From the NCBI RefSeq assembly GCF_008692035.1, contig NZ_VTFG01000001.1:3349501-3413500 (forward strand): a stretch of DNA of 64,000 nucleotides. The letters are read 5' to 3'. Source of the stretch: Pseudomonas marginalis (lineage in GTDB: Bacteria > Pseudomonadota > Gammaproteobacteria > Pseudomonadales > Pseudomonadaceae). The position numbers were made by a program, and so were the translations under genes. The notes under the pieces were generated by a model. That model was not told the DNA's origin. It did not search any database and was given only the letters and a program-made list of their open reading frames with translations. Position 1 is the stretch's first letter. Every line of letters begins with the position of its first letter. Positions 29,665 through 37,991 of the stretch are shown here, piece after piece.

Positions 29665-29787
29665 TAAACTTAGTTTAACCACAGTTCAAATCCGAACTAA
29701 CAAGCTACAACTAAGCAAAAACCTACAGGCCTAACTCAACGCATGGTTTATTTGATGTGTTTTCTCGGCCAGTAAACTCTGCGTTTA
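29665..29787. promoter_or_regulatory. Candidate operators and promoter of the S24 repressor
   Basis: TAAAC-N3-GTTTA at 29665-29677, GTTC-N6-GAAC at 29684-29697 and TAAAC-N5-GTTTA at 29773-29787 are inverted repeats in an AT-rich region before the repressor gene. The last overlaps the ATG. TTGATG (29752-29757) and TAAACT (29773-29778) could be -35 and -10 elements. These would place the transcript start at or next to the ATG. Confidence 0.45.
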
Positions 29788-30560
29788 TGAATACATCAGG
29801 TGATCGCTTAAAAGCGCTATTACGGGAAGTTCATCTTTCCGCCTCCGACTTCGCCAAGAACCGTGGTGTCACGCCTCAACACGTGAACAACTGGTTCAAA
29901 CGCGGTGTACCCATGGGCCGACTCAACGAGATCGCAGAACTGCTGTGCATCTCCAGCCGTTGGCTACGCACCGGCGAAGGCCCCAAACACCCACCGGCCA
30001 ACTTCCTGCTGGAAGGCCCCGGCACCAGGAAAGGACTCCCCGCCCGCGAAGAAACTGGCAAATACCTCACAGGCCCCGCCTGCCGCCCGGAAAAAATCGA
30101 CGTGGAGATCCCCCTCCACCCCACCTTCACCTCAACCGAACGCATCCGCGTTTCCCTGCACACCCTCGAAACCCTCAACGTCAACCCCGACCGCGCGCTG
30201 GGCGCCTACATGGTCGACAACAGCATGATCGACATCATCCAACAAGGCGCCACCCTCGCCATCGACAAAGGCCGCACCCAAATCATCGACGGCGAAATCT
30301 ACGCGGTCGAACACGACGGAATGCTCCGCATCAAATACCTCTACAACCGCCCTGGAGGTGGCTTGCGCATGCGCAGCCACAATGCCGGTGAACATCCGGA
30401 CGAATACCTGACCCACGAACAACGGTTTGAGCAGAACTTCCAGATCGTGGGGTGGGTGTTCTGGTGGTCTACCCTCAATAACCGCCGCCCACCCGTGCCG
30501 CTGGATGAGCATCTTTTGGGCTGGGAAGGCTCTAAATCGGATCCGGAGGTGGGCAACTGA
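29787..30560 (+). CDS. Phage-type repressor: XRE helix-turn-helix with S24 peptidase domain
   Basis: A 257-residue LexA/CI-like regulator. The N-terminal helix-turn-helix covers about residues 8-60 (SASDFAKNRGVTPQHVNNWF). The C-terminal S24 domain has the catalytic Ser in MVDNSMIDIIQQG and the Lys in LRIKYLYNR, so self-cleavage on DNA damage is possible. No phage structural, integrase or cro genes are nearby, so it is solitary. There is no ribosome-binding site before the ATG, and a possible -10 lies just upstream, so a leaderless message is possible. Targets are unknown. Confidence 0.85.
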   Translation: MNTSGDRLKALLREVHLSASDFAKNRGVTPQHVNNWFKRGVPMGRLNEIAELLCISSRWLRTGEGPKHPPANFLLEGPGTRKGLPAREETGKYLTGPACRPEKIDVEIPLHPTFTSTERIRVSLHTLETLNVNPDRALGAYMVDNSMIDIIQQGATLAIDKGRTQIIDGEIYAVEHDGMLRIKYLYNRPGGGLRMRSHNAGEHPDEYLTHEQRFEQNFQIVGWVFWWSTLNNRRPPVPLDEHLLGWEGSKSDPEVGN

Positions 30561-31005: not shown

Positions 31006-32163
31006 TCAATCCAATATCAAATGCGGCAAAAACCGGCTCGAATCCTTGGTAATCAAACTATTATCCTCCCGCACCCCAATTCCCGCCGCCTGGTCCCCAA
31101 TCACCCAAGACCCAATCAACGTGTAGCTGTCCCCAAACCGCGGCAGCGGTGCGAACTCCTGAAGAATAAACGGCGCATCCGTATAAGGACCGTCCTCTTT
31201 CACGATCAGCCCATCAGCCGTCTGCAGCTCGATATTCGCCCCTTCCCGCGAGAAGAATGGCTTGCGCACCCATCCCTTCGGCACAGCTTTACCCGGTTCG
31301 GTATCCAGGTGGGCCGCGAGCAGATTCGGGTGGCCTTTGTTGAATTCCCACAGCAGCGGCAGGATGCCTTTATTGGAAATGATGGATTTCCACGCTGGCT
31401 CGAAAAACTGGGTGTCGCTCTCGGCAATCGCGGCGCCGAAGGGTTCGTGGAAGATGAATTCCCAGGCGTGCAGTTTGAACAGGTGGGGAATCCAGCGGTC
31501 CTGGAGATCGACGAAGCGGCCTTCGCGGGTCAGGCCGATGTCTTCGATGTCGATGTGGCGTGATTCGATGCCGACTTTTTCCGCGACGAGGCGCAGGTAG
31601 TCGGTGGTGCCTTTGTCTTCGACCGAGTCTTTCATCGAGGCGAAGTAGAACGGCTGGTTGATCTGCAGTTGGGCGAAGGCCTGGTGCAGCTTGGTGTCGA
31701 TGCTGTTGAACTGGTCGGCATGCTTGGGCAGCAGGCCGCGTTCGATGCATTGCTCGAGCCAGCCCCACTGGAACGCCGCGGCCTCGTAGAGGCTGGTCGG
31801 TGTGTCGTAGTTGAGTTCCAGCAGCTTGGCGGGGCCGGTGCCGTTGTAGGAGAAGTCCATGCGCCCGTACAGGTGCGGGTGGCCTTCGAGCCATGAGGTT
31901 TTGATCATGTCGAAGAAGGGCGCGGGGATGCTCAGGCGTTCGAACAGTTCTTCGCTCTGGACCACGCGGGCGACGAGGTCCATGCACATGTCATGGATCT
32001 CGGTGGTCGGGTCTTCGAGGTCGTGCTCGATTTGCTTGAGCGTGAACTGGTAATAAGCGCGCTCGTCCCAGTAGGGTTCGTTGTCGATGGTATGGAACAG
32101 AAAGCCGAGGTTTTCAGCCGTCTGTTTCCAGTCATGACGCTCTGCGCAATGGATTTTCTTCAT
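31006..32163 (-). CDS. yjfC: ATP-grasp amidoligase, glutathionylspermidine synthase-like (YjfC/YgiC family)
   Basis: A 385-residue homologue of the C-terminal synthetase domain of Gsp, without the amidase. Family sequences include PYWDERAYYQFTLKQIE at the N-terminus, GRMDFSYNGTGPAKLLELNYDTPT, WKSIISNKGILPLLWEF and a late PFFSREGANIEL. Such enzymes form amide bonds using ATP, but the real substrates of YjfC/YgiC are unsettled. It is the last gene of an eight-gene operon. In E. coli the same gene closes the yjfIJKLMC cluster. Confidence 0.88.
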   Translation of the reverse strand: MKKIHCAERHDWKQTAENLGFLFHTIDNEPYWDERAYYQFTLKQIEHDLEDPTTEIHDMCMDLVARVVQSEELFERLSIPAPFFDMIKTSWLEGHPHLYGRMDFSYNGTGPAKLLELNYDTPTSLYEAAAFQWGWLEQCIERGLLPKHADQFNSIDTKLHQAFAQLQINQPFYFASMKDSVEDKGTTDYLRLVAEKVGIESRHIDIEDIGLTREGRFVDLQDRWIPHLFKLHAWEFIFHEPFGAAIAESDTQFFEPAWKSIISNKGILPLLWEFNKGHPNLLAAHLDTEPGKAVPKGWVRKPFFSREGANIELQTADGLIVKEDGPYTDAPFILQEFAPLPRFGDSYTLIGSWVIGDQAAGIGVREDNSLITKDSSRFLPHLILD

Positions 32164-32175
32164 GGCCCGGTTTCC

Positions 32176-32886
32176 TTAACTGCTCGACCCGCCGCCGCCC
32201 CAGCCGCTGCGTGCGCTGGCCTTGCTGCCGAAGCCGCCACGGGAGGTGGCCGACGCTACGGAGCTCGACTGGCTGGAGGTGCGCAGCGTGTTGGTGTAAT
32301 TGCTGCTGCCGTACCGGGCTTGATTCGAGCGGCCAAACGTCGCGCCACTGGAGACGCGCTGGTTGAGCGTGGAGTTGCCGTAGTTACCGCGATCATCGCG
32401 ATAGCGATACACCGGCTCGGAGCGGTAGCTGTTGCGATTACTGCTCAGCATGTTGCCGATCAGCAGACCGGTCAGCAGGCTGCTGGTGGAGAAGCCGGAG
32501 CCGCCGCTTGCCTGAGCGTTGCCCGCCTGGGCGTTGGCCGCGTCGACCTGGGATTGTGTCACCTGGCCTTCGGCGGTCAGTTCGAAACCGCCCAGCTTGG
32601 GAATGAACTGGCCATTGGAGTCCAGTTGGCACCAGCCGGCGACAAAGTCGGCATCGCAATCGGCCTGGCTGGCGTATACCGGGGCGATGCGGCGATGCTC
32701 GGCCATGGCCGTCATGTAGGCATCCGAACAGACGTCCACCGGAAGCTTTTCATCGGCACATTGCTGCACCGACTGGAAGTTGTACTTCTTCTGCAAATCG
32801 TAGGTTTTTTCCGTCGGCCCGCAACCGGATATCGCCATGGCGACCGACGCTGCCAGCGAAAGCTGGACGTACTTGCTTCGTTTCAT
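32176..32886 (-). CDS. yjfM: DUF1190 lipoprotein (YjfM/YgiB family)
   Basis: A 236-residue predicted lipoprotein: signal peptide with lipobox AISGC (Cys about residue 22). A DUF1190 core follows, with several Cys in the pattern QQCADEKLPVDVCSDAYMTA and SQADCDADFVAGWCQLD. The long C-terminal tail is rich in Ser, Gly and Asn (NRNSYRSEP, SARSGWGGGGSSS). Function is unknown. It always accompanies the ATP-grasp gene in yjf/ygi clusters. The ATG at 32884-32886 gives the clean signal sequence. Gap to yjfC is 12 bases. Confidence 0.87.
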   Translation of the reverse strand: MKRSKYVQLSLAASVAMAISGCGPTEKTYDLQKKYNFQSVQQCADEKLPVDVCSDAYMTAMAEHRRIAPVYASQADCDADFVAGWCQLDSNGQFIPKLGGFELTAEGQVTQSQVDAANAQAGNAQASGGSGFSTSSLLTGLLIGNMLSSNRNSYRSEPVYRYRDDRGNYGNSTLNQRVSSGATFGRSNQARYGSSNYTNTLRTSSQSSSVASATSRGGFGSKASARSGWGGGGSSS

Positions 32887-32904
32887 CGGGAGCTCCGTGC
32901 GCAA

Positions 32905-33333
32905 TCAGTTCTGGGTAGGTGTCATGCAGGCGGCATTCAACATGCCGACGCTGATGGCCACCGCCGCCACGTAGATGCCCGCTGCAAGCTCGCCTCTCTT
33001 GATGCGCTCGGAAGTGCCCTTGAGCACGAGACTGGTGAGCAGAAACGCCAGGAGTTGGACGACGGCTGCGATCACCGCCCAGACGACGAAGTCGAGGATG
33101 CTGATCGAGTAGGCAATCACGTTGCTGGCCGGAATGGCGAAACCGACGATGGCGCCGCCCAGGGCGACCGCTGCGGAAACGTTGCCCGCCCGGATCAGCT
33201 CGAACTCCTTGTGCGGGGTGACGCGGGTGTAGATGAACTGGAACAGCGCAAACAGTACGGCAGCCCCCAGGATGTAGGTGACAAACCCGAGCACGGCGGC
33301 TTTGTTCAGGGAGATGGAGAGAGCTTCTAGCAT
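32905..33333 (-). CDS. yjfL: DUF350 membrane protein (YjfL family)
   Basis: A 142-residue integral membrane protein with four hydrophobic segments, starting MLEALSISLNKAAVLGF. Conserved features are IRAGNVSAAVALGGAIVGFA between the second and third segments and IKRGELAAGIYVAAVAI near the end, which is internally similar to the earlier repeat. Function unknown. It is the membrane partner in the yjf cluster, 18 bases before the DUF1190 gene. Confidence 0.87.
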   Translation of the reverse strand: MLEALSISLNKAAVLGFVTYILGAAVLFALFQFIYTRVTPHKEFELIRAGNVSAAVALGGAIVGFAIPASNVIAYSISILDFVVWAVIAAVVQLLAFLLTSLVLKGTSERIKRGELAAGIYVAAVAISVGMLNAACMTPTQN

Positions 33334-33348
33334 GGACTTCTTCCTTTT

Positions 33349-34020
33349 TTAGAGCGCATTCAAGTCGGTTGTGTACAGCGAAATGCCCAGGGAGGTGCTC
33401 AGGCTGACAGTGCCTTCGGCGTCTTCTTCGACAGAGAACAGCAGAAACTCGCGGCGATCGGTCAGGCCGGTGTCACGGGCATATAGCATCGAGCGGTGTT
33501 CGACGCTGTAGGAGTCCTCGGGGTTTATCACCTGCTCGCTCATGGCCACCAATTCTGTCTGGCCAGCCTCGCTGCCCCACACGCGCGTGTATTCGACGCC
33601 GTTGTGGGTGTAGGTCGGCAACCCGATCGGGCTCTGCGGCCCCGCCAGCCGGCGCAATTCAGCTTCGCTGCTGATAGTGACGTAGCTCAGGTAGTTGAAC
33701 AGGATCACAGACTCGACCTGCCCGGCGATGTCGCCCGTGGTGTGCACCTGCAGCCAGTAATCCTCGTCGTTCATGTAGTAGCGCGACAGCCAGGTCGACT
33801 GCCCGAGGTCAACGGTGCCGTTACTCCAGATTTCCTGGGAGCCGGGGATAACCACCGTGGTCTTCCCGTCGAGCAACAACTTCAGGGTCGTGTCGAATAT
33901 CACGCCTTTGCCCGGCGCCAGGCCAAGCGGCCCGGTGGTCGGCAGCGGTTCGGCAGCGCCTTTCGAGTGTGTATTCGCTTGCGGGGCCTCAAGCCCCATC
34001 AACTGTTTAAACCATCCCAT
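33349..34020 (-). CDS. yjfK: DUF2491 family protein (YjfK)
   Basis: A soluble 223-residue protein starting MGWFKQLMGLEAP. No signal peptide is seen. The centre contains a beta-rich sequence (VVIPGSQEIWSNGTVDLGQSTWLSRYYMNDEDYWLQV) followed by EYTRVWGSEAGQTELVAMSE. The function of DUF2491 is unknown. The assignment rests on order in the yjf set as well as on length. The first 14 bases overlap the end of the ion-channel gene, which supports the chosen ATG at 34018-34020. Confidence 0.8.
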   Translation of the reverse strand: MGWFKQLMGLEAPQANTHSKGAAEPLPTTGPLGLAPGKGVIFDTTLKLLLDGKTTVVIPGSQEIWSNGTVDLGQSTWLSRYYMNDEDYWLQVHTTGDIAGQVESVILFNYLSYVTISSEAELRRLAGPQSPIGLPTYTHNGVEYTRVWGSEAGQTELVAMSEQVINPEDSYSVEHRSMLYARDTGLTDRREFLLFSVEEDAEGTVSLSTSLGISLYTTDLNAL

Positions 34021-35041
34021 TGGAGATTTCCTTGAGGCGGGTGGAGGCAATGTAGAAGAGCTCGCCGCCTTCAACGCGCGTGGCGCTGGGCGGGTTGATC
34101 GACGGTTGCGGGGCACCTTTGGCGCGATAGCCGATGAGGGTGGCGTTGTGGCGCTCTTTCATCTGGGTGTACAGATCGCCAAACGTGGCTTCAAACGCCT
34201 CGGGCAATCTCATCAGGTATTGGGTGGCGCCCTGCCCCACGCACAGCAGCTCATTAATGACCACCGACGAGCCCGGGTCCTGAGAGGCGCGCACCAGCAT
34301 TTCGATAGCCATGCTTGAGGTGCATTCCAGGCTGGGGGCGTAGGAACTGGCCAGTGCGGCGATCTCACTTGCATTGAAGTGGGCGACCACGTGCCCGACC
34401 GGATTCAATTGATTCACCGCCAGCACGGTGGCCAGCGTCAGATCGTCAGACGGGGTTCGCACCAGCACACGCTCGGCACCGGGCACACCGGCACGCAGCA
34501 ACAGCGCTGTGGAGGACAAGCTCTCACCACGGATAAAGGCCGCCTTGCCTGGCATCGGGTTTTCTTCGAGGGTGCAATCGCAGATGACGATCAGGTTGTC
34601 GTTCGAGGTTTCGTCTTGCAGCAACAACTCGATGACCCGTTCACTGGACGCGCCCTCCCAGCCAATGAGCACGGTATGGCCGATTTTGCCGGTGAAATCG
34701 CCTTTGCCCTTCATGCCTTTTCTCCATGCATCGATGACAGTGCTGGTGGTTTTGCCGATCGCCGCCGTCAGCAGCGCAATGCCCCCGAGCATGACCCAGG
34801 TCGCCACGAACAAGCGTCCCAAAGAGGTCTGCGGCGATAGATCGCCATAGCCGACGGTCAGCGTGGTGGTGAGATAGAAGTAAACGAACGTGGCGGGCGC
34901 GGTGAGGTGTTGTTCGCCCAGAACCACCAGGCCCAGATAAGCCGTGCTCAAGTGTACCGCCAAGGCGATGACCAGGCCTGCCCAGCCGAAGCGGTGAAAG
35001 AGGGACGCGGCGTACCTGCGCAACAAAAGAAAAATCGGCAT
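34007..35041 (-). CDS. Two-TM potassium channel with RCK/TrkA-N domain
   Basis: A 344-residue protein with two membrane segments flanking a pore loop whose selectivity filter is TVGYGD (TTTLTVGYGDLSP). A cytoplasmic RCK Rossmann domain follows, starting GHTVLIGWEGASSERVIELLL, and a second regulatory part. It is a predicted ligand-gated K+ channel. The ATG at 35041 is used; a TTG further out is in frame. It is inserted among yjf-type genes, which E. coli lacks at this position, suggesting that membrane potential or K+ is linked to the module. Confidence 0.88.
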   Translation of the reverse strand: MPIFLLLRRYAASLFHRFGWAGLVIALAVHLSTAYLGLVVLGEQHLTAPATFVYFYLTTTLTVGYGDLSPQTSLGRLFVATWVMLGGIALLTAAIGKTTSTVIDAWRKGMKGKGDFTGKIGHTVLIGWEGASSERVIELLLQDETSNDNLIVICDCTLEENPMPGKAAFIRGESLSSTALLLRAGVPGAERVLVRTPSDDLTLATVLAVNQLNPVGHVVAHFNASEIAALASSYAPSLECTSSMAIEMLVRASQDPGSSVVINELLCVGQGATQYLMRLPEAFEATFGDLYTQMKERHNATLIGYRAKGAPQPSINPPSATRVEGGELFYIASTRLKEISNGMV

Positions 35042-35074
35042 TGCGTCCCTGACTCCCTGGGTGCTCAAGTGCGT

Positions 35075-35635
35075 TCAGCCGGCATTAAACCTGCTGCGTG
35101 GTTGAGAGAGAAGTACCTTGGCGGCAATAAATCCGGCGAAGGCACCAAACAGATGCCCTTCGAAGGAAACGCCTTGGCGAGGCAGGAAGCCAAGGACCAG
35201 TCCGCCATACAGTACCGCCACCACACCGGCCGTGATCAGGTTGCTCCAGCTCCTGTGGAACCAGGCGCGAGACAACAGGTAGGCCCACAACCCGAACACC
35301 CAGCCGCTGGCCCCGACGTGCACACCCGCAAAACCGAACAGCCAGACCAGCGAACCGCCCAGCAGGATGATGATCGCGCTGACGGTCACAAACCGATTGA
35401 GCCCTTCGATCATCACCAGGCTGCCCAGGATCACAAAGGCAATCAGGTTGGCGCTCAGGTGGGCAAACGACCCGTGCAAAAACGGTGAGGTGAGGATGCC
35501 GGGCAGGCCCTGCAGCGTTCTCGGGATCAGGCCGAACGTCATCAGGCTGTAACCAGTCGCGGCATTGAGCAGTTGCAGCGCGACCATGAACAGCGCCAGG
35601 CCTGCGATTGTCTTGAAACCCTTCAGGGCATCCAT
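35075..35635 (-). CDS. Rhomboid family intramembrane serine protease
   Basis: A 186-residue protein with about six membrane segments. The rhomboid catalytic dyad is seen as Ser in VGASGWVFGL (GxSG) and His in FEGHLFGAFAG. The HGSFAHLSANLIAFVILG segment (WR/HxxxHxxxxHxxxN-type) is also present. It would cleave membrane proteins within or near the bilayer; the substrate is unknown. It is placed between the PspA-like and channel genes in the operon. The ATG at 35633-35635 (MDALKGF) is chosen. Confidence 0.88.
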   Translation of the reverse strand: MDALKGFKTIAGLALFMVALQLLNAATGYSLMTFGLIPRTLQGLPGILTSPFLHGSFAHLSANLIAFVILGSLVMIEGLNRFVTVSAIIILLGGSLVWLFGFAGVHVGASGWVFGLWAYLLSRAWFHRSWSNLITAGVVAVLYGGLVLGFLPRQGVSFEGHLFGAFAGFIAAKVLLSQPRSRFNAG

Positions 35636-35691
35636 CCTGACCTCGAGGTAAAAAAGAAGGGCAGACACTGCCCTTCCTGCGGCGACGTTGC

Positions 35692-36390
35692 TTACTCGGC
35701 CGATTTTTGCTTCAGACGCTCCAGAATCGCATTGGCGCTGCCTTCGTTCGGCGTGATGCCGGCGTCGCGCAGCTTGCGCTCCAGGTCGGTCCCGGTCGAT
35801 GCATCTGCCAGTTCATCCTGGGCTTGCAGTTCAGCGGCGCGTTGCTGCTGCTTGGCCTGCAAGCGATTCAGCGTACCGACGGCGGTTTCCAGCTTGCCGT
35901 TGGCACCGCCGCTGGCGATGGAAGCGCTGACCTGGGCCTTCTGTACGCTGTCGCGCGCCTTGGCCATGTCCACTTGCTGGCGCAGGCTTTTGATCCGGCT
36001 TTCGGCCTTGGTGATGTCCTTGCGCATGCCTTCCGCATAGCCACCGAACTCGGTGGCTTGCTTATGCTCGACATCCCGCTCGTTGGTCAGGGTCGAGATG
36101 GCTTCGGCGACTTCCAGGGCGAGGTCTTCACGATTGGCCTGCAGGGCAGCCACGGCCTTGGACTCCAGGTCCTTGATCTTGGCGTCGTACTCGTTGACGC
36201 GATCAGTCGCCAGTTTGTGCTTGGCCATGATGCTCACCAGCTCACGCTTGGCGTTGGCCAGCGCGGTGTCGGCATCGCGGATTTCCTGATCGAGGATGCG
36301 CAGGGCCTGTTGGTCGACGATCGATTCGCCGACTTCGTTGGCACCGCCACGCAGCGCGGTGAACAATTTGCTCCAGATGGACTGAGTCAT
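35692..36390 (-). CDS. yjfJ: PspA/IM30 family protein (YjfJ)
   Basis: A 232-residue ESCRT-III-like, helical, coiled-coil protein: MTQSIWSKLFTALRGGANEVGESIVD, then long heptad-rich helices (REDLALEVAEAISTLTNERDVEHKQ and KAESRIKSLRQQVDMAKARDSVQKAQ). PspA proteins bind and protect stressed inner membranes. No pspBC or pspF is nearby. It lies 17 bases after the DUF2170 gene. The E. coli yjfJ gene has the same neighbour. Confidence 0.9.
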   Translation of the reverse strand: MTQSIWSKLFTALRGGANEVGESIVDQQALRILDQEIRDADTALANAKRELVSIMAKHKLATDRVNEYDAKIKDLESKAVAALQANREDLALEVAEAISTLTNERDVEHKQATEFGGYAEGMRKDITKAESRIKSLRQQVDMAKARDSVQKAQVSASIASGGANGKLETAVGTLNRLQAKQQQRAAELQAQDELADASTGTDLERKLRDAGITPNEGSANAILERLKQKSAE

Positions 36391-36407
36391 TGGATACTCC
36401 CGAATAC

Positions 36408-37097
36408 TTAATTGAAGAAACGTTCGAAGGCTTCGCTGGCGCGCTGCACGTTGTCGACCAGGGTTTTCACCTCGGTGACGATATTGGTCAGGCTGGAATC
36501 GGAGCTCAATGCACCGAACATGTTGTAGACCACTTGCCCGTTAGGCATGGACTCGATGCCGATTGAGGACAGCGGGAACATTTCCCGGCTGCGCAACACC
36601 GCGTCATTGAATTTTGCGACATCGTTGATGGACTCGACATCGACCAGCACGGTGTCGACGATGATCTGCTCGCCCACCACCGCGATGTAAATCGGCAGGC
36701 CACCGAAGTCGTTCATTTCCAGCTTGATGCTGGACTCGGAGCCTTGAACCAGAGAAAGCGTAATGTCCTTGGACACCACGTCGTCCAGGGCCTGAAGAGC
36801 GGTGAAGAGGCGATCGATATTCCAGTTGGTACCTGCGCTCATGAAATTCTCCGACATGAATGAGCCAGCCAGAATCGGCTGGCGAAGCTGTTTCTCCATC
36901 TGCTTGAGCAGGCTTCGGTTTTCGGGAAGCACCCAAGTCTCGTGTTTCACATAGCCGGCGGCCGCCAGGCCTGCACGCATCTGCTTCATGTAAAAGCTCG
37001 ATGGCTTTTTGGCGGACGGCTTCAAGCGCTCTCCCTTGAGGCTTGCTGAATCGGTATCGGGCCCTCTAGGCGGACTCGATGGAGAGCTGCTTTCCAT
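36408..37097 (-). CDS. yjfI: DUF2170 protein (YjfI) with N-terminal extension
   Basis: First gene of the operon, 229 residues. The C-terminal DUF2170 domain starts about residue 90 (WNIDRLFTALQALDDVVSKDITLSLVQGSE) and is fairly acidic. The preceding ~85 residues hold a basic, low-complexity start (ERLKPSAKKPSSFY), then MKQMRAGLAAAGYVKHETWVLPENRSLLKQMEKQLR. That strand-helix pattern resembles ribbon-helix-helix DNA-binding domains. An autoregulatory role is inferred only from this and from the palindromes just upstream. The function of DUF2170 is unknown. Confidence 0.78.
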   Translation of the reverse strand: MESSSPSSPPRGPDTDSASLKGERLKPSAKKPSSFYMKQMRAGLAAAGYVKHETWVLPENRSLLKQMEKQLRQPILAGSFMSENFMSAGTNWNIDRLFTALQALDDVVSKDITLSLVQGSESSIKLEMNDFGGLPIYIAVVGEQIIVDTVLVDVESINDVAKFNDAVLRSREMFPLSSIGIESMPNGQVVYNMFGALSSDSSLTNIVTEVKTLVDNVQRASEAFERFFN

Positions 37098-37120: not shown

Positions 37121-37132
37121 CTCACGCGTGAG
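37121..37132. promoter_or_regulatory. Palindromic operator copy 1 (CTCACGCGTGAG)
   Basis: A perfect 12-bp palindrome, 24 bases before the DUF2170 ATG, covering the predicted transcript start. An identical copy lies 46 bases away. Confidence 0.75.
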
Positions 37133-37134
37133 AA

Positions 37135-37163
37135 AATCTACAGGCATTTTTTGCCACACTCAA
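37135..37163 (-). promoter_or_regulatory. Predicted promoter of the yjf-like operon
   Basis: Read on the minus strand: TTGAGT (37158-37163), a 17-base spacer, then TAGATT (37135-37140). The core lies exactly between the two palindromes. The spacer holds a GGCA-N5-TGCC inverted repeat (37143-37155). Confidence 0.55.
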
Positions 37164-37166
37164 TAG

Positions 37167-37178
37167 CTCACGCGTGAG
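37167..37178. promoter_or_regulatory. Palindromic operator copy 2 (CTCACGCGTGAG)
   Basis: Second exact copy of the 12-bp palindrome, three bases upstream of the predicted -35 element. Flanking T and A tracts are present at both copies. Confidence 0.75.
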
Positions 37179-37358: not shown

Positions 37359-37991
37359 ATGAGCACTCCAACCTACAACCGCTTGAACAAAGACGACGCC
37401 GTAGTCCTGCTGGTCGACCACCAGACCGGCCTGATTTCCCTGGTGCAGGACTTCTCGCCCAACGAGTTCAAGAACAACGTGCTGGCCCTGGCCGACCTGG
37501 CCAAGTTCTTCAACCTGCCGACCATCCTCACCACCAGCTTCGAACAAGGCCCCAACGGCCCGCTGGTACCGGAGTTGAAAGAGATGTTCCCGGACGCGCC
37601 GTACATCGCCCGCCCCGGCCAGATCAATGCCTGGGACAACGAAGACTTCGTCAAGGCAATCAAGGCCACCGGCCGCAAGCAGATCATCATCGCCGGCGTG
37701 GTCACGGATGTATGCGTAGCGTTCCCGACCTTGTCGGCGCTGGCGGAAGGGTTTGAGGTGTTTGTGGTGACCGATGCCTCCGGCACGTTCAACACCACGG
37801 TGCAGCAGGCGGCGTGGAGCCGGATGACACAGGCCGGTGCACAGTTGATGAATTGGTTTTCGGTAGCCTGTGAGCTGCACCGCGACTGGCGCAACGATAT
37901 CGAAGGCCTGGGGAATTTGTTGTCCCAGCGCATTCCTAACTATCGCAACTTGATGAATGGGTATGCGGCGCTGACGGCTCACCAGAAGTAA
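37359..37991 (+). CDS. ycaC: Isochorismatase-family hydrolase (YcaC-like)
   Basis: A 210-residue cysteine hydrolase of the isochorismatase superfamily, closest in sequence features to YcaC. The catalytic Asp is in LLVDHQTGL and the Cys in GVVTDVCVAFPTL, with the non-prolyl cis-peptide region AGVVTDV. The physiological substrate of YcaC is unknown. It is divergent from the yjf-like operon across 261 bases, and an AAAAAAGG sequence precedes the ATG. An intrinsic terminator follows. Confidence 0.88.
   Translation: MSTPTYNRLNKDDAVVLLVDHQTGLISLVQDFSPNEFKNNVLALADLAKFFNLPTILTTSFEQGPNGPLVPELKEMFPDAPYIARPGQINAWDNEDFVKAIKATGRKQIIIAGVVTDVCVAFPTLSALAEGFEVFVVTDASGTFNTTVQQAAWSRMTQAGAQLMNWFSVACELHRDWRNDIEGLGNLLSQRIPNYRNLMNGYAALTAHQK

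Follow-up and report, generated by a model that had tools for sequence, protein, structure and literature searches.

Eight closely set genes on the minus strand (31006-37097) of a 64,000-nucleotide stretch of Pseudomonas marginalis DNA (assembly GCF_008692035.1, contig NZ_VTFG01000001.1, positions 3,349,501 to 3,413,500; hereafter the window) raise the question of how such a set is controlled, what its ligase acts upon and whether all of its members belong together. In order of transcription they encode a DUF2170 protein (gene 1), a PspA protein (gene 2), a rhomboid protease (gene 3), a K+ channel (gene 4), DUF2491, DUF350 and DUF1190 proteins (genes 5 to 7) and an ATP-grasp ligase (gene 8). 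The original prediction, made from the letters alone, had taken them for a yjf-like membrane module into which the protease and the channel had been built. We found the operon to be real and conserved, to belong to a published type and to have the rhomboid as an optional member; its new content is a probable autorepressor with putative operators and a candidate substrate for the ligase. The whole was read as a PspA (YjfJ)-type envelope-stress operon with gene 1 as autorepressor, a polyamine-joining ligase and an optional rhomboid, a reading to which we give a probability of about 0.52. It draws on gene order, protein families, the association of domain and operator, catalytic residues, the ends of DUF1190 and the history of gain and loss, all as they appear from sequence.

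We infer DNA binding by gene 1, a role of PspA in release and the substrates of the ligase and the rhomboid as follows. The MazE-like domain of gene 1 would bind, as a dimer, the two palindromes that bracket the promoter and thereby repress the operon, and its CesT-like domain would bind PspA. Membrane damage would draw PspA to the membrane, alter the gene 1-PspA complex and so release the operon. PspA would repair the membrane, and the K+ channel and the DUF350 protein would act within it. The ligase would modify the DUF1190 lipoprotein, attaching a polyamine (spermidine) at its C-terminal carboxylate. The rhomboid, as an optional protease, may trim or remove a membrane protein of the set.

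The eight genes stand in the order that had been claimed, and each protein reaches a Pfam curated cut-off (in series DUF2170, PspA_IM30, Rhomboid, Ion_trans_2, DUF2491, DUF350, DUF1190 and GSP_synth). The spacing is tight and the channel and DUF2491 genes overlap, by 14 bases if ATG 34020 is taken as the DUF2491 start; the claimed upper limit of 56 bases between genes did not hold. As the longer GTG frame of the rhomboid begins within a hairpin, its likely start is ATG 35632, and the gap after pspA is therefore 59 bases. The MG1655 annotation bears out that Escherichia coli yjfIJKLMC has the same six core genes in the same order, with neither rhomboid nor channel in between; unlike gene 1, however, its YjfI (133 amino acids) has no N-terminal domain, and no operator motif lies upstream. 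The third group of Ravi 2024 comprises CesT/Tir(DUF2170)-PspA, an ATP-grasp ligase, a ligand-sensing K+ channel, DUF350, DUF1190 and DUF2491 (PMC11237479); with seven of its eight genes in common, the present operon belongs to that group. The word rhomboid does not occur in the main text of that paper, and its section on the group names neither a second DUF2170 domain nor operators (PMC11237479). The arrangement cannot be put down to chance, as the six-gene core recurs in 61 of the 78 DUF2170 places, the window included, of a genus sample (149 genomes, 76 with DUF2170), the other 17 having no full core or, as with L087, being cut by a contig end. With a phylum sample of 398 genomes, 50 of them with DUF2170, in which 48 non-Pseudomonas places were examined, the PspA-type membrane module proved to be conserved well outside this strain.

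As to control, the perfect palindrome CTCACGCGTGAG is found, letter for letter, at two places of the 6.94 Mb genome, both in the promoter region of this operon. In 213 loci we searched the 250 bp upstream of gene 1 for the motif T[CT]ACNNGT[AG]A. It was present in 161 of the 167 in which gene 1 has an N-terminal domain, as against 1 of 46 without it; 1.7 of 167 would be expected by chance (from shuffling the 250 bp before the frame start). With and without the domain, the counts were 76/77 and 1/4 for the genus and class samples and 2/7 and 0/42 for the phylum sample; the named loci (80/80) and plasmids (3/3) with the domain all had the motif. Since several contigs occur both among the named and among the genus loci (for example L127 and L076), the independent evidence is that of the genus and class samples and the phylum sample. 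In L054, the lone domain-less locus with the motif, a domain seems to have decayed. In the 131 loci with two sites the starts were spaced 44-46 bp apart in 113, 21-23 bp in 14 and 52 bp in four. In the bacA mutant of Pseudomonas aeruginosa, five downstream proteins are given as raised 6.1- to 13.5-fold (PMC10948618). As the operators track the domain, the domain resembles MazE-like antitoxins and the bacA mutation raises downstream proteins, gene 1 is probably the operon's own repressor. Its CesT-like domain may in turn couple it to PspA; a strong BacA-BacB interaction is mentioned, as unpublished, in the account of the bac operon (PMC10948618).

The N-terminal domain falls outside both the DUF2170 Pfam match and the stretch matched in 8q8o, to which the C-terminal domain is homologous. 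HHalign related it to the MazE-like family PF11455 with a probability of 94.7 in local mode (E 6e-8) and of 82.2 in global mode (E 1.2e-6), and 20 column-shuffled controls gave at most 2.0; PF11455 had been picked after weak Pfam matches and was represented by six sequences. In direct Pfam searches three of seven segments matched PF11455, all under its cut-off (best 14.2 against 22 bits, L036, E 0.045). A 'plasmid repression protein' model was likewise matched weakly. A partial survey of the literature yielded no account of a second, N-terminal domain in DUF2170 proteins.

Gene 1 might instead be solely a chaperone or protein-level regulator of PspA, with an unlinked factor reading the palindromes and the N-terminal segment serving as a tail that binds PspA or the membrane. 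This agrees with the absence of the domain from E. coli YjfI and with the proposal that BacA is a chaperone or regulator, made from its likeness to ExsC and type III secretion system (T3SS) chaperones (Wallart 2024, PMC10948618); yet the palindromes track the presence of the domain and the domain resembles an antitoxin family. The confinement of the exact palindrome to this promoter likewise fits a dedicated, cis-encoded regulator, and we regard the chaperone-only alternative as unlikely.

Several points count against autorepression by gene 1. The window's own N-terminal segment has no Pfam match, and the AlphaFold model, with a predicted local distance difference test (pLDDT) score below 50 at residues 11-89, is too poor to judge the fold. 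As the domain is absent from 42 of 49 phylum-sample DUF2170 proteins, that of E. coli included, autorepression cannot be general. Among the seven phylum loci with the domain only L238 and L240 carry the strict motif; in three of the remaining five, palindromes of another sequence lie close to the start, of a sort found in domain-less loci too, and the association of domain and operator is largely one of shared descent. As the bacA mutation is a transposon insertion, transcription from the transposon could itself lift the downstream genes. The operator centre was AT in all 37 loci where residue 52 is K or R, and in the 124 loci with H or M it was GC in 120, GC plus AC in two and AT plus GC in two; this match is without statistical power, as the changes on the tree are so few. 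It was dropped as a statistic of specificity, since residue class and centre change twice each, leaving one independent pair on supported branches.

The sigma-70-like promoter placed between the operators is below the threshold of the promoter scan and is held with low confidence. A sigma-54 promoter, as proposed for bacA, was rejected: the operon region holds three single-mismatch sites, all on the opposite strand and within genes. The 34 consensus matches in the whole window are not clearly above chance, shuffles giving 26.1 (standard deviation 5.6) and 12 of 100 of them reaching 34.

The chemistry of the ligase had been thought undescribed, which was not borne out. Gene 8 is homologous over its full length to the solved YjfC/YgiC structures (7uk6, E 1e-125; 7uk8, E 3.7e-119), and both E. 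coli enzymes, YjfC and YgiC, carry the annotation of peptide-spermidine ligase, an activity reportedly described for the two by Pederick in 2023. A passage of another paper calls them peptidylpolyamine synthetases. For the acceptor, we looked at the DUF1190 ends, of which 57 of the 68 phylum-sample places were read. A -GG end was present in 46 of the 57, by subset in 30/30 best-scoring, 15/20 lower-scoring and 1/7 earlier loci (two of these being Pseudomonas with -SSS); the remaining ends were -SSS, -WGS, -SGS, -GGS, -AGT, -AAT and -EGS. A GSP_synth frame accompanied 43 of the 50 best- and lower-scoring DUF1190 loci. E. coli YgiB also ends in -GG, and among the other operon proteins checked none has this end. 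The DUF1190 -GG end is thus a likely acceptor for the peptide-spermidine ligase activity and, standing beside the gene for such an enzyme, a candidate natural protein substrate. Among the papers listed in a literature search, no account of DUF1190 tails was noted.

Some features of DUF1190 speak against this assignment. The window's own protein has the tail RGGFG...WGGGGSSS, and its clade ends in -SSS, not in -GG; among 143 distinct sequences, mostly from Pseudomonas, 93 end in -SSS, 45 in -GG and five otherwise. The 30 best-scoring proteins are a favoured subset, the lower-scoring ones being less uniform. DUF1190 moreover looks like an exported lipoprotein, with signal and Cys found by eye, and Ravi 2024 also terms it a lipoprotein (PMC11237479); the ligase should be cytosolic. 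The product could accordingly be a small-molecule polyamine conjugate, with the -GG end serving localisation, assembly or the like. That alternative gains from the protein looking out of reach of a cytosolic enzyme and from the -SSS of the window's clade and the few other divergent ends, but both E. coli ligase genes adjoin a DUF1190 gene with a -GG end, and the end is peculiar to DUF1190 among the proteins checked. Glutathionylspermidine synthetase works on the C-terminal glycine of glutathione, and the ligase could act on the -GG end as a relative of that enzyme. The odds of the small-molecule product fall a little short of even. Should the ligase indeed act on DUF1190, this would be a bacterial C-terminal polyamine tag on a lipoprotein. 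The switch from -GG to an equally uniform -SSS was seen in one Pseudomonas clade (P. fluorescens), and -SSS occurs also in a distant genome (L364).

As regards the rhomboid and the channel, the genus distribution was drawn from 81 loci, three of them from the class sample. The 61 genus loci with a full core had both genes in 18, the rhomboid only in 12, the channel only in five and neither in 26, so that neither gene is peculiar to this strain (rhomboid 30/61, channel 23/61). Fourteen of the 48 non-Pseudomonas places had a full core in the stretch examined; 12 of these had the channel, five of the 12 with a rhomboid after the ligase gene. The channel has therefore long belonged to the set, and yjfIJKLMC of E. 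coli looks like a reduced form; the idea that the channel had been built in here is unsupported on this count and on its presence in the published operon type. A tblastn scan of the stretch between pspA and DUF350 covered 142 slots, of which 58 held both genes, 23 the rhomboid only, 18 the channel only and 43 neither. Pieces of a rhomboid turned up in six of the channel-only slots and in one slot on a plasmid, pieces of a channel in nine of the rhomboid-only slots and in one of the empty ones. The E-values of these remnants ran from 7e-49 to 0.008, several being weak matches of 18-25 residues, and L102/L162 and L108/L168 are near-identical pairs. To judge by these remnants, the rhomboid and the channel have been lost repeatedly and independently in Pseudomonas. 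On a tree of 105 operons (named rows hand-picked for rarer states, 33 of 80 loci; L070 excluded) the rhomboid required at least 12 changes and the channel at least 15; both are dispensable, a point against the overall reading of the operon. Where present, both are under purifying selection, with ratios of non-synonymous to synonymous substitution rates of 0.11-0.29 for the rhomboid and 0.07-0.12 for the channel (10 pairwise comparisons each).

The proposal of an integrated module of eight genes, in which the rhomboid and the channel work jointly with the ligase, has to be judged on these results. The two genes lie inside the unit with short gaps and are maintained by selection, and rhomboids are met with in DUF2170-PspA operons of three kinds. 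The two genes nevertheless come and go independently, 26 of the 61 genus loci keep the core but have neither, and a terminator-like hairpin stands between pspA and the rhomboid gene; no association of the two was seen in 10 independent pairs, a comparison of little power. We hold such a module to be improbable. The history rather corrects it, the channel being long-standing and the protease an optional extra.

Gene 3 is predicted to be a proteolytic rhomboid by its Ser-His dyad and HxxxN motif. HxxxN was present in all 96 sequences of an alignment that includes E. coli GlpG and repeated genomes; 92 of them showed the Ser and 90 the His, the missing ones being gaps in six sequences cut by locus ends. 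It is the sole PF01694 match of the genome at E 0.01 and did not reach the cut-off of the rhombosortase model TIGR03902 (25.1 against 84 bits). In a tree of 48 hand-picked rows, 36 of them operon-linked, the rhomboids of Pseudomonas yjf operons formed one clade (97/91), and those of family f141 (at the operon end) and of bac-type operons branched elsewhere among unlinked rhomboids; a single clade for all 36 was rejected (p 0.0003). As the deep forks of this tree are weak and some of its branches long, and as the 'unlinked' rows L297 and L298 sit 18-19 kb from DUF2170, we claim more than one recruitment and no exact number. On this tree, rhomboids joined DUF2170-PspA operons more than once. That the rhomboid subfamily is exclusive to the operon was discarded as circular, six of the eight supporting rows belonging to the query alignment. 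Its 32 places in the phylum sample comprised the best eight at 10 kb or less from DUF2170, two at 18-19 kb and 22 unlinked, and in ten of the 22 that were inspected no operon genes were seen.

As a terminator-like hairpin stands after pspA, full read-through from this gene cannot be assumed. Such hairpins occur within 90 bases after pspA in 40 of the 142 slots, where shuffles expect 1.3, and in none of the 18 channel-only slots; some lineages may therefore make more of the products of genes 1 and 2 than of the rest. The hairpin sequences differ among the examples listed. Some of the slots, such as those of L078 and L083, hold a palindromic sequence that may be of the repetitive extragenic palindromic (REP) type.

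Among known systems, the Pseudomonas bac operon bacABCDEF shares the DUF2170-PspA dyad (PMC10948618), and bac-type genus loci had the N-terminal domain and operators, with a rhomboid after the large ATPase gene in some. It differs in that two other proteins and a 1746-amino-acid DUF3686/AAA ATPase replace the channel and ligase set. The two partners are YqiJ-like and band-7/flotillin proteins according to Ravi (PMC11237479); those of L285 had no Pfam match. The main text of the BacA paper does not contain the word rhomboid (PMC10948618). In L285 (9000-9551) and L288 (9908-10486) the large ATPase gene shares the last 4 bp of its 3' end with the rhomboid gene, and in L287 no rhomboid follows it. 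The classical Psp system (pspABCDE/pspF) is alike in having PspA as membrane-stress effector and, as we suppose for gene 1, a PspA-bound regulator; there, however, PspF is an activator, whereas the present operon would carry its own repressor. PspC (PF04024) had no match in the genome, with a positive E. coli control, and PspB and PspF were not searched. E. coli YgiB-YgiC resembles the operon in its -GG DUF1190 beside a gene annotated as peptide-spermidine ligase, but PspA, channel and rhomboid are absent within the stretch shown.

DUF2170 adjoins PspA in most of the phylum loci examined, and its role has so far been that of a possible chaperone or regulator (PMC10948618). Taken at its widest, the evidence would make YjfI/BacA proteins with the N-terminal domain a new kind of stress regulator, MazE-like and T3SS-chaperone-like in its two parts and reading PspA, in an operon that tags DUF1190 C-terminally with spermidine and has repeatedly recruited a rhomboid; we consider this full claim doubtful.

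Table 1. Genes and candidate control elements of the operon, in window coordinates.
Feature	Position	Strand	Basis or remark
Gene 1, DUF2170/YjfI/BacA family, candidate autorepressor	36408..37097	-	Pfam; profile comparison; operators
Gene 1 domains: MazE-like N-terminal, about residues 30-74; CesT/Tir-like DUF2170 C-terminal, residues 91-228			
Gene 2, PspA/IM30, YjfJ type	35692..36390	-	Pfam; sole PF04012 match in genome
Gene 3, predicted rhomboid intramembrane serine protease, accessory	35075..35632	-	HxxxN, GASG Ser and catalytic His present
Gene 4, K+ channel, TVGYGD filter, MthK-like cytosolic domain	34007..35068	-	TTG start; ATG 35041 possible
Gene 5, DUF2491 (YjfK)	33349..34020	-	Pfam; beta-rich in moderate model
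Gene 6, DUF350 membrane protein (YjfL)	32905..33333	-	Pfam
Gene 7, DUF1190 putative lipoprotein (YjfM)	32176..32904	-	TTG start; ATG 32886 likelier
Gene 8, GSP_synth ATP-grasp ligase, YjfC type	31006..32163	-	Pfam; homology to solved structures
Distal operator (candidate), perfect palindrome CTCACGCGTGAG	37167..37178		Exact-copy search of genome
Proximal operator (candidate), perfect palindrome CTCACGCGTGAG	37121..37132		Start 46 bp from distal start
Candidate sigma-70-like promoter between operators, TTGAGT-17-TAGATT	37135..37163	-	8/12, by eye
Intrinsic-terminator-like hairpin and T run after pspA, possible attenuator	35654..35678	-	

The unit is flanked by a divergent frame upstream (37359-37991, plus strand) and a convergent frame downstream (29757-30560, plus strand). 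The channel matches MthK 3rbz (phmmer, E 1.1e-13, residues 61-276), and its TrkA_N match is under the Pfam cut-off (20.9 against 23.8 bits). The AlphaFold model of DUF2491 (pLDDT 65) gave no Foldseek match in the PDB at E 0.001 or below, with template modelling (TM) scores of at most 0.33 among the 50 matches listed. A role in anti-phage defence was set aside, PADLOC giving just two weak PspA matches.

Besides, the operon was present on Pseudomonas plasmids of 0.39-0.45 Mb, namely pQBR103 (L283) with a rhomboid gene, pPma4326F (L284) with none and pPlaYM7902A (L291) with a rhomboid remnant, a channel gene being listed on none of them. L070 carries a tandem double copy of the DUF350-DUF1190-ligase segment, and in L235-L239 and L266 (from another class) the set is split, the DUF2170-PspA-ligase part and the genes for the channel, DUF2491 or DUF350 pointing away from each other. 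The genome belongs to the P. fluorescens group, as gene 1 is 99% identical to its nearest counterparts within the 80 named loci, those of Pseudomonas grimontii and Pseudomonas sp. JAI120.

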